Below are positions 16,907-25,083 of a stretch of 32,482 bases of DNA, piece after piece. The first letter of the stretch is position 1; each line of letters begins with the position of its first letter. Origin of the DNA: Candidatus Moraniibacteriota bacterium (GTDB lineage: Bacteria; Patescibacteriota; Minisyncoccia; Moranbacterales; DUUL01). The DNA lies in the NCBI GenBank assembly GCA_027008775.1, contig JALVDV010000005.1, forward strand, positions 67,300 to 99,781. The letters run 5' to 3'. The notes under the pieces were generated by a model, which saw only the letters and a list, made by a program, of their open reading frames with translations, did no database searches and was not told the DNA's origin. The position numbers and the translations under genes are program-made.

Positions 16907-17560
16907 TTATCTTACTCTAATCAAGACAAGTCTGGTTGTTTTATTACCGGCTTTGTCATAGGCTCTGACTTTCAGTAAATGCAGACCTCTCGGGGTGTTG
17001 GCGGGAATGGTGAACTTTGGATTTTTGTTTTTATATTTTTTATGGAGGAAATAAAATTTGTAACGTTTAATTCCATTTCGTCCTTTGCCAATTTTTTTCT
17101 TATCGGTTGCTTGAAAATAAACAACCTCCCCCGCTCTTTTTGTTAAAAACTTTGGCAAGTTAAATATTTTTGGTTTTTTGGTATCAACTTTTATTTTGTA
17201 ACGCTTTGATTCTCCAATCAAATTTCCGTTTTGATCAAAATATTTAAACTTTATTTTATAACGCCCGTTCTTTTTTATTTTTTTACCAACTTTCCATTTT
17301 CCGTCACTCCTAATGGTTGCTTCATCCTTAAGTTTCCCATCAATAAATAATTTCACTTTCCCTCCGGCCAATCCTTCCGCTTGAGAGCTAAATGCTAATT
17401 TTTTACTCTTTAAGTAAACGGTTTTCTTTTTGTTCAACCGATATTTTTTTCGATGATATTTTATTCTAACATCAGGATCTATGTCATTTATGGCTGAGTC
17501 TGTTGTATTATTATAAACACAATCTTCCTCCAGCACCGGAGACCCCCCCGACACATCCAT
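16907..17560 (-). CDS. C-terminal part of cohesin-like surface protein (Ig-like domains), separated from 17511-18758 by a frameshift at a poly-G tract
   Basis: Reads in frame as ...GGSPVLEEDCVYNN... and completes the TSP1-like motif of the upstream ORF; two beta-sandwich-like Ig domains. Confidence 0.7.
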   Translation of the reverse strand: MDVSGGSPVLEEDCVYNNTTDSAINDIDPDVRIKYHRKKYRLNKKKTVYLKSKKLAFSSQAEGLAGGKVKLFIDGKLKDEATIRSDGKWKVGKKIKKNGRYKIKFKYFDQNGNLIGESKRYKIKVDTKKPKIFNLPKFLTKRAGEVVYFQATDKKKIGKGRNGIKRYKFYFLHKKYKNKNPKFTIPANTPRGLHLLKVRAYDKAGNKTTRLVLIRVR

Positions 17561-18758
17561 CCGGTGAACTGGAAATTACAGTTCTTGTTTTTTTGTTATT
17601 TTGTTGGCATTCGCTCCATTCCGAATAAGTGAAATCCGTGCAAGTGGGAAGACTGGTATCAACTGTAAAACTGTTTACATTCAGAGGACTGGATTGATTG
17701 CCGGCTTCATCGGTAACGGTGATGGTACAATTGGAATGTGCCCCATTGTCCAAATGATTGAAAGTGATGGTGTTGTTACCGACAACTGCGTTAGTTGTGG
17801 AAGATGAACAATCTCCGGCATAAGTAATCGCACCGGCCTCGGTTGAATTAAATGTGTAGTCAGGTGTATCATCGTTGGTGGGATTATCAACGGGAGTAAC
17901 CTCGTTAAGAGTCGGCGTAACAGTGTCTATTCTGAATGGACTAACGGAGATAGTGGAAGACAGACCGGTGCCGGAATCTGTGACGGTTAAAGAACAATCA
18001 TTATAATCGCCATCAGGCATGGGGTTGCTGGCGGTTGCACTGTTGTTACCGGCTCCCACACTGTTGTGTGTCTCCGAAAAATAACCATCACAAGCTCCTC
18101 CCCAATCGGGTGTACCTAAGTCAACATTGTTACTGTAACTGAAAACATAAGTGGGGGTGTTATTATTGGTTGGGGTGGGAACGGGGGTTACTTCTGTAAT
18201 CACCGGTGGTGAATCGTTTTGATGGGTAACAGTGGCGCCGGTTAACGTGCCAGTATTAATATCCCCCTCGGAATTCTCGCTCATTTCATTAACCCTGATG
18301 CTTAGTTGCGTGCTACCGGGAGTGAAAGTGGCGGTTGTTTTCAAATGTATTGTGATTATATTTTGGTTTGGACCCATGGTGCCATTATCAGCTATCATAC
18401 CGGCGAAACGAAAATGACCGGCGGCAATATCATCAACATTTGAACCCATGGTATAATCTTGAGTATCATCACCTTTGTGAAAGCCCTTGCCGTCATCGGC
18501 ATTAGGGTCTTCTCCTTGACTGGTATCAACAGTAATATAGGCTGGATCAAAATCGAGATACATATTAAAACTGTTTAGATGTTTGCTACCGGTGTCAACA
18601 TAAACCTTTACATCAAAATTCTGATTTTCCGGTTGATTTTGGTTAGCCGGTATAATCCAAACATCACCTTCAGCGGCCAAGGAAGTACCGGCAGCAATGA
18701 TGAAGGTCACTGTAGCTACAACGATGATATTCAAAAATTTGAGTACTTTGTTTTTCAT
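17511..18758 (-). CDS. Secreted cohesin-like domain protein with Ig-like repeats and truncated TSP1-like motif
   Basis: 415 aa; signal peptide; GDVWIIPANQNQPENQNFDVKVYVDTGSKHLNSFNMYLDFDPAYITVD...GHFRFAGMI...IITIHLKTTATFTPGSTQLSIRVNEMSE resembles cohesin; two ITEVTPV..PTNDDTPDYTF-type repeats. Confidence 0.65.
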   Translation of the reverse strand: MKNKVLKFLNIIVVATVTFIIAAGTSLAAEGDVWIIPANQNQPENQNFDVKVYVDTGSKHLNSFNMYLDFDPAYITVDTSQGEDPNADDGKGFHKGDDTQDYTMGSNVDDIAAGHFRFAGMIADNGTMGPNQNIITIHLKTTATFTPGSTQLSIRVNEMSENSEGDINTGTLTGATVTHQNDSPPVITEVTPVPTPTNNNTPTYVFSYSNNVDLGTPDWGGACDGYFSETHNSVGAGNNSATASNPMPDGDYNDCSLTVTDSGTGLSSTISVSPFRIDTVTPTLNEVTPVDNPTNDDTPDYTFNSTEAGAITYAGDCSSSTTNAVVGNNTITFNHLDNGAHSNCTITVTDEAGNQSSPLNVNSFTVDTSLPTCTDFTYSEWSECQQNNKKTRTVISSSPDGCVGGVSGAGGRLCL

Positions 18759-18813: not shown

Positions 18814-20247
18814 TTAGTATCTGGAAAATCTGGCAAATTTGGCGAAAACAGCTATATTGTATTGTTCATCGTCGCCTTGATTCTGCATAGCCGTACGAAT
18901 GTAATGCAATATACTTTCCCTTGAGGAGGAATGAGAGTACTCTTGTAATTCCAACCATTCATAGAGAGTGGCCGCATCATCATTATAAACCCCACCGCTA
19001 CCATCTATATAATTGGAAAATGTTATGTTATTGGGGTCAATAACCGCCCCACTGGTAAAAGTATTAGCTAAGTATTGTAATTTTTCCTCGGTCCATTGGT
19101 TTCTTAAACCGGCATCATACAAGGAGAAAACAAATTCTGCCAGACGCGCTCCGTGATTTACATCTTCCATTCTATCTTGAGAATTGGGATCAACATCGGC
19201 CGGCCAATAATACCAAGTTAAAAAATGATCGTTTTGGCCGGAAGTTTGTTGGGTGGTGTTCCACCAAATATAGTTGCCAACTTGGGTAACGATATCTCGA
19301 TAAGTATCATTAGCGTGTCCGTCAGCTATGCTGGCTCGATACATTTCAACCAAAGGTTCGGCAATTATGACCGTTAAATTAATAGGGGCTTCTCGGTTGG
19401 AATAATCCAAACTATCCTCTATATGACCGTTGGGATATTGATAATATGTACCTGTTGTGCCATCGCCGTAGGGCGAATCACCATCGTTAACGAAGGGATT
19501 TTGAATACTGTAAAGTTGTTCAACCATATCATAATATCTGTCTGCGTGTGCTCCGAATTCGGGCTGAAGATTGGGATCTTCCTTAACAATTCTGGCAAAA
19601 GCGGCCAGTGGGTAGGCATATAAAGCGTTTGCCAACATTTCAGAATAGCGAGCCTGTCCATCTTGACCAAAACTTTCTCTAAATCCCCAACCGGGCAAAA
19701 CCGTACCGGTGCGATCATCAATCCTGTTGGTGAGAATATCATTGCCATCGGCCACAATTTCCAACAGTTCATCCAATTTGCGAAGGAGGCGAACATCATA
19801 GGAAGCTTCATACATATCAATGTAAGCTCTCATATAGGCGCCGTGATCCCAACCACTGGGATGATCATCAACGCCAAACTTTCCGACGAAATAATCGTTC
19901 TTAAGATCTTCATGTTGGCCGAGAAACCATTGTACCTCTTGCGTCAGATCGGGAAAATTGTTGTCGCACCAACCATTGTCGTCAACCGGTAATCCCAAGG
20001 AATAACGGAAAAGAAGTTGGGCATCGGTTTGGTTGATCTGATTGTCGCAGTTGACATCGCCGGTGGTAGCTGTGTCTACCCAGTTTGTGCCGGATAAATC
20101 ATTATTTAAGATTTTACGCATGGTTAAGCTGGCATCAAGAACACTTATTTTTCCGGAATTATTAACATCGGCACGAATGGTGTTGTCCGCTTGGGCAACA
20201 GAAGTAAAAAGTAAAAGAAATAGAATTATAATTAATGTTTTTTTCAT
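18814..20247 (-). CDS. Secreted dockerin-domain protein with alpha/alpha-toroid (glycosidase/lyase-like) module
   Basis: 477 aa; signal peptide; duplicated dockerin Ca2+ motifs ADVNNSGKISVLDASLTMRKIL and GDVNCDNQINQTDAQLLFRYSLGLP; helical repeat domain follows. Confidence 0.65.
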   Translation of the reverse strand: MKKTLIIILFLLLFTSVAQADNTIRADVNNSGKISVLDASLTMRKILNNDLSGTNWVDTATTGDVNCDNQINQTDAQLLFRYSLGLPVDDNGWCDNNFPDLTQEVQWFLGQHEDLKNDYFVGKFGVDDHPSGWDHGAYMRAYIDMYEASYDVRLLRKLDELLEIVADGNDILTNRIDDRTGTVLPGWGFRESFGQDGQARYSEMLANALYAYPLAAFARIVKEDPNLQPEFGAHADRYYDMVEQLYSIQNPFVNDGDSPYGDGTTGTYYQYPNGHIEDSLDYSNREAPINLTVIIAEPLVEMYRASIADGHANDTYRDIVTQVGNYIWWNTTQQTSGQNDHFLTWYYWPADVDPNSQDRMEDVNHGARLAEFVFSLYDAGLRNQWTEEKLQYLANTFTSGAVIDPNNITFSNYIDGSGGVYNDDAATLYEWLELQEYSHSSSRESILHYIRTAMQNQGDDEQYNIAVFAKFARFSRY

Positions 20248-20400: not shown

Positions 20401-20740
20401 ACACAATTTTAAAACCCTTTGACGGCGACTATCATCGCCGGAGTGTTGGTTGGACAGACATTATAAAGTTTGTACCGAGAAACCCAAACAACACAGGGTG
20501 CGGAAAGAAAGGTTTAGGTTTCAGGACAGTTGACGGTTTAAACGCTACACCAAAACAAATACCTTGTTATTCTGGGATTGCAACAAAACAGATAGTTCAA
20601 CTGCTACAGTTTAAACCGAGTAGAATCCGTCGGTGGGCGCCCGTAAGCGTCAAAACGAAGAGCGTTTTGTTTAGACGCTGAAGTAAGGTGGTACCACGGT
20701 TTTAATCGTCCTTAGACAAGTTTTGTTTAAGGCGTTTTTT
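20401..20740 (+). promoter_or_regulatory. T-box riboswitch leader (Ile) with terminator, upstream of ileS
   Basis: Hairpin CGGCGA-CUAUCA-UCGCCG (20423-20440) displaying AUC; Stem III-like AGCGUCAAAACG aagag CGUUUUGuuuaGACGCU; antiterminator UAAGG-UGGUACC-ACG-guuuuaau-CGU-CCUUA (20684-20714); competing terminator 20707-20740 with T6. Confidence 0.85.
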
Positions 20741-20867: not shown

Positions 20868-21257
20868 ATGAAAGGAAAAATTATCTATAAAGAATTGAGC
20901 TATCAAGTAATGGGAGTTGTTTTTGAGGTGTACAATGAGCTTGGTTATGGTTATCAAGAAAAATATTATGAAAAAGCAATTGCCAAAGCTTTTGATAAAA
21001 AAGGGATTGCTTATAAGCGACAAGTGGCTTATAAAATCAAATTTAAAGGGGGATTTATTGGGATACAATATCTTGATTTTTTGATTGACGACAAAATCGT
21101 ACTAGAGCTTAAGAAGGGAAACTACTTCCCGAAGAGAAATATTGAACAAGTTAAAAGATATTTAAATGTAACAAATAAACAATTGGCTATTTTAGTAAAT
21201 TTTACATCTACAAATGTAAAATCATTAAGAGTATTAAATATTAATAATAAATCTTAA
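20868..21257 (+). CDS. GxxExxY protein (PD-(D/E)XK nuclease superfamily-like)
   Basis: 129 aa; motif GYQEKYY, and DFLIDDKIVLELKKG (D...ExK). Confidence 0.9.
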   Translation: MKGKIIYKELSYQVMGVVFEVYNELGYGYQEKYYEKAIAKAFDKKGIAYKRQVAYKIKFKGGFIGIQYLDFLIDDKIVLELKKGNYFPKRNIEQVKRYLNVTNKQLAILVNFTSTNVKSLRVLNINNKS

Positions 21258-21306: not shown

Positions 21307-24300
21307 ATGAAAAAAGAAAAACATACACCATTCAAACCCGTTGATTCTTCCAGAAAACTTCCGGAGATGGAAGAAGAAATTTTGAAGTTTTGGAATGAAC
21401 ACAAAATTTTTGAAAAGTCGGTGGAAAACAGAAAAACCGGTGATGATGACAATTTGTATAGTTTTTATGACGGACCGCCTTTTGCCACCGGCCTGCCTCA
21501 CTACGGACATATTGTGGGGACTTTTATCAAGGACACCGTTCCTCGCTATTGGACAATGAAAGGGAGATACATCCCTCGCAAGTGGGGCTGGGATTGTCAC
21601 GGTTTACCAATTGAAAATTTGGTGGAAAAAGAACTGGGTAGCAAAACCAAAAAGGAAATAGAGGAGCTGGGAGTAGAGAAATTCAACAATCTTTGTCGCT
21701 CCAAGGTTTTAGAGTTTGCCGACGAGTGGAAAAAAATTATAAATCGTTTGGGTCGTTGGGTGGATATGGAACATCCTTACCGCACTATGGATAGAGATTT
21801 TATGGAGAGCGTTTGGTGGGTTTTTAAGGAATTGTGGCAGAGAGATTTGATTTACTATGATTATCGCTCTATGCATATTTGTCCTCGTTGCGAGACTACG
21901 CTTTCCCAGTCGGAAGTAAGCGAGGGTTATAAGAATGTGAAGGATTTGTCGGTGATTGCTAAGTTCGAACTAGAAGAAGGACAAAAAATAAATGGGGAGG
22001 ATGTTGAAAAAAATACGTATGTTTTAGCCTGGACAACAACTCCTTGGACCCTTCCGGGAAATGTTGCTTTGGCGGTGGGAAAGGATATTGATTATGTTTT
22101 AGTAGAGAAAAAAAATGAGAATACCGACAAACCGGAACAATTTATTTTGGCGGAAAACAGATTGAAAGAGGTTTTTGGAGATGAAAATCAGGAATATAAA
22201 GTTATTGACGAATTTAAAGGAAAAGATTTAATCGGGCTAAAATACAAACCACTGTGGGATATTTATGCCAATGACAAAAATTTAGAAAATAGAAAAAATG
22301 GTTGGCAGGTTTATGATGCTGATTTTGTAACAACTGACGAAGGAACGGGTGTGGTGCATATTGCTCCGGCGTTTGGGGAAGACGATATGAATTTGGGTAA
22401 AGAAAAAAATCTTCCCTTCGTGCAACATGTGGCGATGAATGGAGTGGTGGATGAAAAAGTGGAAGCCATCGGCGGACTAAATGTTAAACCGATTGATAAT
22501 CCGCAAGCAACCGATGTGGAAGTGATTAAATATTTGGCCGGCAAGGGATTATTGTTCGCCAAAGAAAAATACGAACACAGCTATCCTCACTGTTGGCGTT
22601 GCGATACGCCGTTGATTAATTACGCGACGGGGAGTTGGTTTGTGGCGGTAACTAAAATTAAAAAGCAACTTTTGGAGAATGCCAAAGATATTAATTGGAC
22701 GCCAAAACATATTAAAGAAGGTCGTTTTGGCAAGTGGTTGGCAGGCGCCCGAGATTGGTCTATTTCCCGGCAACGTTTTTGGGCCAGTGTAATTCCCGTT
22801 TGGACCTGTGAAAAATGTGGGCAACGAGAGGTTTTTGGTTCTGTGGCAGAAGTGGAAAGTAAGTTGAAATCATTTTTTCTTCTGCGCCACGGCGAAGCGG
22901 AGCATAATATTCATGATATACTATCCGGAAAGGTCGGCGACCGTTATTTTTTAACTGAAAAGGGCATAGCTGATGTGAAAAAGGCAGCGCAAAGACTAAA
23001 AAAAACAGGGGTTGATTTAATTATTGCTTCCGATTTAGATCGCACCAAACAAACCGCTGAGATTGTGGCAGAAATAACCGGGGCAAAAATTGTTTTTGAC
23101 AAAAGACTGAGAGAAATTGATTTTGGCGAATATGAAGGCAAGAAAGAAAGTGATTTAAAAGATTTTATTGCTGATTGGTATAAAGTGCGAGAAGATTTTG
23201 CTTTTCCCAAGGGAGAGAGCTGGGAGAGTCTGTTTGAGCGCGCCAAAGATTTTTATGAACATATGATGGCCAACTACTATGACAAGAGGGTGGTTGTTGT
23301 TTCTCACGGGGACACCTTGGTTGCCTTGGAAGCTGTTTTGGAAAATAAAGATGACATTTATTCCGCCATAAGAAAAATCTTGAAAAGCGCCTACCCGCAG
23401 AAAGCGGAATTGATTGAAAAATCTTATCGTCTAACTGATTTACACAAACACATTGTTGACAAGATTGGTTTCGCTTGTTCAGAGTGTGACGGAACAATGA
23501 AGCGGGTGCCGGATGTTTTGGATACTTGGTTTGATAGTGGTTCTATGCCCTATGGACAACAACACTACCCTTTTGATAACAAGGAGACTTTTGAAAAAGG
23601 TTTTCCGGCGGATTTTATTGCCGAGGGAATTGACCAGACACGAGCTTGGTTTTACTACTTACATGTAGTCGCCGGAGGAATCTTTAATAAAAAGGCTTTT
23701 AAGAATGTAATTGTTAACGGCATTGTTTTGGCGGAGGATGGACAAAAAATGTCCAAAAAATTGAAGAATTATCCGGATCCGATGGAGATGGTACAAAAAT
23801 ATGGTTCCGATCCGCTACGATTTTATTTAATGCAATCTCCAGTGATTAATGCCAATGATTTAAATTTTAGCGAAAAAGATTTGGCGGAAATTGCCCGGGG
23901 AATGTTTAGAATGCTTTGGCAAAGCTATAGTTTTTTTGTGATGTATGCCAATATTGATAAGTTCACAGTTCCCCACTTCGCCAAGGCTTCGTGGGGCAAG
24001 CGCGGTTTACAGTTCACGGAAAGTAAAAATATCTTGGACCGGTGGCTGGTTTCAGAGTTACATCAGTTGATTAAAGAAGTAAATAAACGAATGGAGAATT
24101 ATGAGTTGATGCAGGCCACTCGTTTGTTTGCGCCATTTATAGACAATTTATCCAATTGGTATATTCGTCGCTCCCGAAAACGATTTTGGAAGAGTGAAAA
24201 TGATACTGACAAAAACCAGGCTTATGCCACTTTGTATTATGTCTTAGTGGAGCTGGCAAAGACGATCGCTCCTTTTGCGCCGTTTATTGCTGAAGAGATT

Positions 24301-25083
24301 TACCGGAATTTGGTTCACGGTTCCCCACTTCGCCAAGGCTTCGTGGGGCAGGAACAGTTCACAGTTCACGGTAACAAAAAATTAGTTCACAGTTCACAGT
24401 TCGCGGTTCATAGTAATAAAAAAAGTGGAAGCTCAGGCGAGGTGATGGAGCGAGGTGTTAGCCAATCTAACGAGTCGTTAACCGATATATCTGTGCATTT
24501 GGCGGATTACCCAGTGGCTGATGATGATTTAATTGACGATGAATTGAATAAAAAAATGGGCTTGGTGCGGGAAATTATCAGTGAGGGATTAAAATTGCGG
24601 GCCAGAACACAAATTAAAGTGCGACAACCTTTGGCGCGACTGTCTATTGCAACGGCAGGCACTGACGCTGACTTTCTGCAAACTGAGGTTGAGTTAATGG
24701 AAATCATTAAGGAAGAGCTAAATGTTAAAGAAGTGGCTCAAGAGAAATTTATTTTTAATAAAGACGCAAAAAATATGGGCGAAGTAGGTGGAATAAAGAT
24801 TGCTTTGGTTACCGAGATTACACCGGCGTTAAAATTGGAAGGACAAGCGCGAGAAATTATTCGCTTCATTCAGCAAATGCGTAAAGAAGCGGATTATCAA
24901 TTAGATGATCGGATTGAAGTAAGCTATCAGGGTTTGAATGAAGTTTTTGAAAAATTTGGCGATCTAATCAGCCATGAAACCTTGGCTAAAAATCTTTCAT
25001 CTCGGCCTTTAAACGGTTTTGACTTAGAAAAAGAAATTGAAATTGACAAAACAATAGTTAAGTTACAAATAAGAAAGAAGTAA
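21307..25083 (+). CDS. ileS: Isoleucyl-tRNA synthetase with inserted histidine phosphatase domain
   Basis: 1258 aa; HYGH motif (GLPHYGHIVGT), DGQKMSKKLKNYPDP, DTWFDSGSMPYGQQHYPF; insertion with RHGEAEHN, SDLDRTKQTAEI, REIDFGEYEG, SHGDT between residues ~521 and ~708. Confidence 0.95.
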   Translation: MKKEKHTPFKPVDSSRKLPEMEEEILKFWNEHKIFEKSVENRKTGDDDNLYSFYDGPPFATGLPHYGHIVGTFIKDTVPRYWTMKGRYIPRKWGWDCHGLPIENLVEKELGSKTKKEIEELGVEKFNNLCRSKVLEFADEWKKIINRLGRWVDMEHPYRTMDRDFMESVWWVFKELWQRDLIYYDYRSMHICPRCETTLSQSEVSEGYKNVKDLSVIAKFELEEGQKINGEDVEKNTYVLAWTTTPWTLPGNVALAVGKDIDYVLVEKKNENTDKPEQFILAENRLKEVFGDENQEYKVIDEFKGKDLIGLKYKPLWDIYANDKNLENRKNGWQVYDADFVTTDEGTGVVHIAPAFGEDDMNLGKEKNLPFVQHVAMNGVVDEKVEAIGGLNVKPIDNPQATDVEVIKYLAGKGLLFAKEKYEHSYPHCWRCDTPLINYATGSWFVAVTKIKKQLLENAKDINWTPKHIKEGRFGKWLAGARDWSISRQRFWASVIPVWTCEKCGQREVFGSVAEVESKLKSFFLLRHGEAEHNIHDILSGKVGDRYFLTEKGIADVKKAAQRLKKTGVDLIIASDLDRTKQTAEIVAEITGAKIVFDKRLREIDFGEYEGKKESDLKDFIADWYKVREDFAFPKGESWESLFERAKDFYEHMMANYYDKRVVVVSHGDTLVALEAVLENKDDIYSAIRKILKSAYPQKAELIEKSYRLTDLHKHIVDKIGFACSECDGTMKRVPDVLDTWFDSGSMPYGQQHYPFDNKETFEKGFPADFIAEGIDQTRAWFYYLHVVAGGIFNKKAFKNVIVNGIVLAEDGQKMSKKLKNYPDPMEMVQKYGSDPLRFYLMQSPVINANDLNFSEKDLAEIARGMFRMLWQSYSFFVMYANIDKFTVPHFAKASWGKRGLQFTESKNILDRWLVSELHQLIKEVNKRMENYELMQATRLFAPFIDNLSNWYIRRSRKRFWKSENDTDKNQAYATLYYVLVELAKTIAPFAPFIAEEIYRNLVHGSPLRQGFVGQEQFTVHGNKKLVHSSQFAVHSNKKSGSSGEVMERGVSQSNESLTDISVHLADYPVADDDLIDDELNKKMGLVREIISEGLKLRARTQIKVRQPLARLSIATAGTDADFLQTEVELMEIIKEELNVKEVAQEKFIFNKDAKNMGEVGGIKIALVTEITPALKLEGQAREIIRFIQQMRKEADYQLDDRIEVSYQGLNEVFEKFGDLISHETLAKNLSSRPLNGFDLEKEIEIDKTIVKLQIRKK
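23961..24019. repeat. Palindromic repeat copy inside ileS (frame A)
   Basis: gttcacagttCCCCACttcgccaaggcttcGTGGGGcaagcgcggtttacagttcacgg; core 23971-23996; translated TVPHFAKASWGK. Confidence 0.85.
24312..24414. repeat. Palindromic repeat copy plus tandem gttcacagttcac inside ileS (frame B)
   Basis: ggttcacggttCCCCACttcgccaaggcttcGTGGGGcaggaacagttcacagttcacgg...; core 24323-24348; translated GSPLRQGFVGQ. Confidence 0.85.

Follow-up and report, generated by a model that had tools for sequence, protein, structure and literature searches.

T-box riboswitches have been divided into classes I-IV; class III, represented by ileS of Nocardia farcinica, has a short Stem I whose specifier is apical and, like class IV, acts mostly on translation (PMC10482949). 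Transcriptional T-boxes generally need the elbow-binding IDTM of a long Stem I to capture the tRNA fast enough during transcription, short-Stem I forms being mostly translational, and reviews describe T-boxes with an ultrashort Stem I and no IDTM only from ileS genes of Actinobacteria, mostly with translational control (PMC7583486, PMC10482949). TBDB used its short-Stem I model on Actinobacteria and on truncated hits of class I (PMC7778990), and a 2008 survey lists no CPR genomes (PMC2494555). In the open-access literature that we searched, which left out subscription papers, preprints and the TBDB supplements, no paper was found that links T-boxes to Patescibacteria, CPR, Parcubacteria or candidate phyla, though such absence is not proof.

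The leader considered here lies in a window (the whole stretch of DNA that was analysed, 32,482 nucleotides from a Candidatus Moraniibacteriota bacterium) and occupies positions of about 20414-20740 on its forward strand. It is very likely a tRNA-Ile-sensing T-box riboswitch working by transcription attenuation: its anatomy, its covariation and the matching of codon to gene are shown, while tRNA binding and tRNA-dependent antitermination are inferences from the way T-boxes are known to work, there being no expression or binding data.

Genomic context and detection

Downstream of the leader and on the same strand lies a putative operon whose first ORF (20868-21257, 129 aa) encodes a PDDEXK_3 (GxxExxY) protein (Pfam PF13366, E = 2.1e-28) and is followed by ileS, the isoleucyl-tRNA synthetase gene (21307-25083), recognised with Pfam and carrying a histidine-phosphatase domain inserted at aa 524-678. 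The divergent neighbours, both on the reverse strand, encode a dockerin-domain protein (18814-20247) and a Big_13 Ig-like domain protein (17511-18758). The IleRS is nearest to Candidatus Moraniibacteriota IleRS (best segments 66-70% identical), with Falkowbacteria next, which places the genome in Patescibacteria (CPR).

The histidine-phosphatase (PF00300) insert sits after the CEKCG segment; inserts of this type are recognisable by motif in several other patescibacterial IleRS (L058, L068, L069, L095), a stand-alone histidine phosphatase gene lies 3' of an Ile-type T-box in genome G082 (L218), and the IleRS of G003 (L008) has, at a different position (aa 305-447), a Ser_hydrolase-like insert (PF06821, borderline score). 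Small ORFs of differing kinds stand between T-box and ileS in the window (GxxExxY/PDDEXK_3) and at L009, L140, L145, L180 and L184.

An Rfam search of the window at gathering thresholds returned tRNA only and did not report a T-box. The T-box model RF00230 does match the leader (44.1 bits, E = 1.9e-8, aligned over 20583-20716 with the Stem I columns deleted), and a standard run misses it because this score lies below the gathering score of 93, which is the threshold of a single model and not a mechanistic feature. All T-boxes detected in the sampled genomes of the window's own family and order also score under the Rfam cut-off, and since none of them reaches the present threshold, they go unannotated. 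The window's own genome (929 kb, 11 contigs) yielded no second T-box.

Anatomy of the leader

All features described here are on the forward strand. The Stem I domain (20414-20499), supported by pair probabilities and by covariation in relatives, begins with a basal helix, ACCC 20414-20417 with GGGU 20496-20499 (pair probability 0.90-0.97), which a K-turn-like junction read from the sequence (UUUGA / GGA) separates from an ultrashort Stem I of 6 bp (20423-20428/20435-20440, pair probability 0.86-0.999); covariation in relatives is seen for both of these helices. Folding places an inserted hairpin (20443-20447/20490-20494) on the junction's 3' side, and since relatives L160, L165 and L172 also appear to carry such a hairpin after Stem I, this extra stem is not unique to the window. 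The hexaloop CUAUCA (20429-20434) contains the specifier AUC (20431-20433), followed by A; this assignment is supported by the tracking of loop codon and gene and by the anticodon GAU of the genome's own tRNA-Ile. When the leader was shuffled 5000 times, 14 of the shuffles contained a hairpin with 6 or more bp and an NNAUCR hexaloop. The class III criterion of an ultrashort, IDTM-less Stem I with an apical loop of 5-6 nt is met by this hexaloop on its 6-bp stem, and the Stem I criterion of class I, a long stem with IDTM and an internal specifier loop, is not, there being no more than an ultrashort hairpin plus an inserted helix 5' of Stem II.

Stem II (20500-20630, pair probabilities about 0.8-0.96) is built from a lower helix (20500-20504/20626-20630, pair probability 0.79-0.97), in which 5/5 pairs covary in relatives, and an upper helix (20511-20516/20612-20617, pair probability 0.94-0.96), with an S-turn-like internal loop between them (AAGAAA 20505-20510 opposite GAGUAGA at about 20618-20624). 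It also bears a long inserted arm, closed by CAGUUG 20527-20532 / CAACUG 20598-20603, which is unseen in the relatives used for training. The putative Stem IIA/B pseudoknot (20631-20651) was assigned from its sequence, in analogy to relatives, its predicted helices being CGG 20631-20633/CCG 20641-20643 and GGCGC 20636-20640/GCGUC 20647-20651; in relatives, the pseudoknot helix has 4/5 covarying pairs and 72.5% of its cells paired. Taking the window sequence together with covariation in relatives, the class III criterion of a Stem II S-turn plus IIA/B pseudoknot is met. Stem III (20657-20682; AGCGU/ACGCU 20661-20665/20675-20679) is flanked by the purines GAAGAG and GAA, following the motif RRRxG...AA described in PMC7583486, and all 6 of its pairs covary in relatives.

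The antiterminator (20684-20714), placed by the RF00230 alignment, comprises helices A1 (UAAGG/CCUUA) and A2 (ACG/CGU) and the T-box bulge UGGUACC (20689-20695), whose UGGU is complementary to the ACCA of the genome's own tRNA-Ile. The competing intrinsic terminator (20710-20740) consists of a stem-loop of 10 bp (20710-20732) and a U6 tract (20735-20740), and it takes the 3' strand of A1 as its 5' arm.

An initial annotation made from sequence alone had reported this antiterminator (UAAGG-UGGUACC-ACG...CGU-CCUUA), the competing terminator with T6, the hairpin CGGCGA-CUAUCA-UCGCCG (20423-20440) with AUC followed by a purine, and the complementarity of UGGU to the 3' ACCA of a tRNA with discriminator A; each of these held, the last with the genome's own tRNA-Ile(GAU) and its A73. 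Its placing of ileS downstream held with the correction that the 129-aa GxxExxY/PDDEXK_3 ORF sits in between. The intermediate stems that it could not assign are resolved as a canonical Stem II plus two inserted, lineage-specific hairpins. The complementarity CGGTTTAAAC/GTTTAAACCG, which it had given as an example of such stems, is real, though the pairing itself has a probability of only ~3% in the 5' part; it was rejected as Stem II on account of this low probability and of the S-turn, which would fall out of register. The 3' copy of CGGTTTAAAC/GTTTAAACCG pairs with GGUUUA 20511-20516 (~95%), giving the upper helix of Stem II.

Conservation and covariation in relatives

The training alignment consisted of 8 ileS leaders from relatives, in some of which variable inserts were cut by hand. 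The window and L008 were excluded from the model; the longer stem of the window had led MAFFT to align the second AUC in its AUCAUC, and the exclusion of the window from training makes the later match of the model to the window independent. In this alignment 95.5% of cells are paired and both-side changes occur at 26/38 pairs, against a shuffled mean of 12 (0/500 shuffles). The resulting covariance model, R1, matches the window with 63.8 bits (E = 1.7e-16), although it puts the window's own Stem I in the wrong place because of the inserted helices. The assignment of that Stem I is an inference from folding, position and the hexaloop rule.

R1 matches most sampled genomes of the window's own order, 59/387 genomes of the class and 122/384 across the phylum. 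For 53 leaders aligned with the covariance model, 96.0% of cells are paired, compared with 67.9% when shuffled and at most 48.8% when slid; this alignment was fitted to the structure of the model and its percentage therefore leans toward that structure, but the result agrees with both kinds of control (slid and shuffled) and with the 8-leader alignment, which was not fitted. All 4 Stem I pairs covary among the 53 leaders (e.g., C-G 22, G-C 22, A-U 7, G-U 1 and U-A 1), and the aligned rows throughout read NNNGA, short stem, loop (mostly a hexaloop NN-codon-A), stem, GA and basal strand.

Specifier codons and tRNA identity

A blind scan for a K-turn, a short hairpin and a basal helix, in which the loop was ignored, replaced an earlier version without the basal helix that gave many false picks. 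It picked 40/86 leaders and 66/1720 shuffles, and the loop held a cognate codon in 34/36 picks with an assigned gene, whereas 10,000 permutations of the gene labels gave 18.1 on average and 27 at most; the Asx class accepted Asp or Asn codons. The window itself meets the specifier criterion that the loop codon match the downstream amino-acid gene, AUC standing before ileS. In a second tabulation, which included more leaders, the diagonal was Ile 41/58, Thr 12/13, Cys 5/5, Asx 20/24 and Gly 5/13, and the off-diagonal counts were lower; the low Gly score is partly due to the Gly codon often preceding U.

The codons found in ultrashort Stem I loops are GAC or AAC (aspS), UAC (tyrS), GUC (valS), UCC (serS), ACC (thrS), UGC (cysK-cysS) and GGY (glyS). 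As R1 was trained only on AUC loops, those before aspS, tyrS and valS constitute independent evidence for the loop as the specifier. For Thr, Gly and Cys the examples are RF00230 matches, Val rests on L233 and L237, which were read by eye (neither valS leader was cleanly recovered by the tabulation scan), and Tyr and Ser on one leader each (L222 and L178). AAC, an Asn specifier, precedes aspS-type genes at L154, L157, L158, L161, L162, L171, L219 and L225, which would fit an AspRS that also charges tRNA-Asn and suggests that tRNA-Asn controls AspRS in lineages that may be without AsnRS; this remains a possible inference only.

The Gly assignments are weaker than those of other amino acids, and one subtype (L017-L019) pairs less well, with 3-4 bp and an 8-nt loop. 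T-boxes of glyS with GGY in a small terminal loop were seen at L011, L015, L017-L019, L024, L254, L267, L272, L274, L275 and L277. Leaders L011, L015, L017-L019 and L024 measure about 100-110 nt from Stem I to antiterminator; these and the similar L267 and L274 seem, on a reading of their sequences, to have neither Stem II nor IDTM, and those read closely are possibly minimal T-boxes. Another group (L263, L269, L271, L278, L280), with a conserved GGGUUGGGUC-type 5' stem and lying upstream of unidentified genes, may carry Trp (UGG) specifiers in an intermediate type of Stem I, as in L056/L057. Long-Stem I T-boxes also occur in Patescibacteria (L028-L048), with 13/384 genomes having one above the Rfam cut-off, and the phylum therefore holds both designs.

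A direct pattern search for the genome's own tRNA-Ile found nothing; it was located with RF00005 and ARAGORN and has the anticodon GAU, discriminator A73 and no encoded CCA. The UGGN-NCCA complementarity criterion is thus met by UGGU and A73, and this tRNA fits both predicted contacts, the AUC specifier and the UGGU bulge. The bulge reads UGGU in most Ile leaders and UGGA in Thr and Gly leaders, the latter fitting the U73 of tRNA-Thr and tRNA-Gly in genome G002. Exceptions are the AUC leaders L006 and L146, which have UGGC instead of UGGU; the genome of L006 has a tRNA-Ile with A73 despite its UGGC bulge.

Taken jointly, it is likely that Patescibacteria hold a large, undescribed branch of transcriptional T-boxes that reads nine or more tRNA identities (Ile, Asp, Asn, Tyr, Val, Ser, Thr, Cys and Gly) by ultrashort Stem I alone; its Gly members, which appear to be without IDTM and Stem II, would then be the smallest T-boxes known, and the tRNA response of this branch is inferred.

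Mode of control

A terminator search of the window found 1 against 0.3 expected in shuffles, and the folding energy of the terminator (-11.4 kcal/mol) compares with -4.3 kcal/mol for the antiterminator alone. The class I criterion of a terminator competing with the antiterminator is met. Terminator-like hairpins with a U tract were found in 61/85 leaders and in 35/425 mononucleotide-shuffled stretches, and in 56/61 of these leaders they overlap the 3' strand of the antiterminator. The usual translational control of class III, by sequestration of the ribosome site, is unmet in the window, which has an intrinsic terminator instead.

During transcription of the leader, AUC in the hexaloop of Stem I would pair with the anticodon GAU of tRNA-Ile, and the purines of the Stem II S-turn would brace the codon-anticodon helix, substituting for the missing elbow-binding IDTM. 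The 3' ACCA of an uncharged tRNA would pair with UGGU in the bulge and stabilise the antiterminator, the overlapping terminator would be blocked and the GxxExxY-ileS operon transcribed; with charged tRNA the terminator would form.

The main alternative is a translational T-box, as in actinobacterial ileS, in which the hairpin and U6 would be incidental. The nearest described aptamer architecture is indeed that of class III, which is mostly translational (PMC10482949). However, the terminator reuses the 3' strand of A1 and relatives conserve this reuse; moreover, ileS starts 567 nt past the U tract with another ORF in between, and sequestration of a ribosome site at the switch could therefore not act directly on ileS. 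We consider this alternative very unlikely. It may also be argued that the T-box is degenerate, its Stem I having decayed in a reduced genome with loss of tRNA sensing, as it is the lone detectable T-box of its genome, scores under the Rfam cut-off and contains long inserts; yet Stem I covariation and phylum-wide tracking of gene by codon are not expected from decay, and the hairpin, bulge and terminator of the window are all intact, which leaves this reading with very little support. A third reading, in which the AUC hairpin is there by chance and another site, e.g., in a long Stem I, carries the true specifier, draws on the covariance model's different placement of Stem I and is also very improbable, given that NNAUCA hexaloops recur above the K-turn at the same place in Ile leaders, that Stem I and the basal helix have pair probabilities >0.85, and that no AGUA...GAA specifier loop was found 5' of Stem II.

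The initial annotation's central proposal, that in a CPR genome an Ile T-box combines an ultrashort Stem I with a transcriptional terminator, is therefore supported, its tRNA response remaining inferred. It had named an Rfam match and conservation in homologues as checks: RF00230 matches, though under the cut-off, and ileS leaders conserve the AUC loop and antiterminator, with covariation. Beyond what it had claimed, this design is used across the phylum and for many amino acids.

An ultrashort Stem I, should these leaders work, would be all that a kinetic, transcriptional decision requires, and it would read tRNA identities in general instead of being a peculiarity of ileS. They would also be natural sensors of tRNA charging in host-dependent bacteria, for which the papers searched describe no T-box, and compact parts for engineering. 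The existence of the proposed branch, if true, would contradict the view that fast transcriptional T-boxes require an IDTM.

Comparison with known T-box classes

Like class II glycine T-boxes (B. subtilis glyQS), the patescibacterial glyS leaders seem to be without Stem II; they differ in seeming also to be without a long, IDTM-bearing Stem I. Class IV (Actinomyces odontolyticus ileS) is resembled by relatives L006, L093, L163 and L176, which have an extra helix inside Stem I and AUC in a side bulge, whereas the window has a simple hairpin, and these four also precede terminator-like hairpins. With class I transcriptional T-boxes (Bacillus subtilis tyrS type, RF00230) the window shares the antiterminator/terminator switch, T-box bulge, Stem II, IIA/B and Stem III, but not the long Stem I, IDTM or internal-loop specifier. 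With class III (Nocardia farcinica and Mycobacterium tuberculosis ileS) it shares a short, IDTM-less Stem I, an apical specifier loop of five or six nucleotides, Stem II with an S-turn, the IIA/B pseudoknot and the discriminator (PMC10482949). There, a Shine-Dalgarno sequestrator takes the place of the window's intrinsic terminator, and the class is described from Actinobacteria and for ileS alone, in contrast with the many specificities found in Patescibacteria; the window also has helices inserted at the K-turn and in Stem II. The element is thus, with switching inferred, very likely no ordinary member of class III but a T-box in which an aptamer resembling class III is joined to an expression platform resembling class I.
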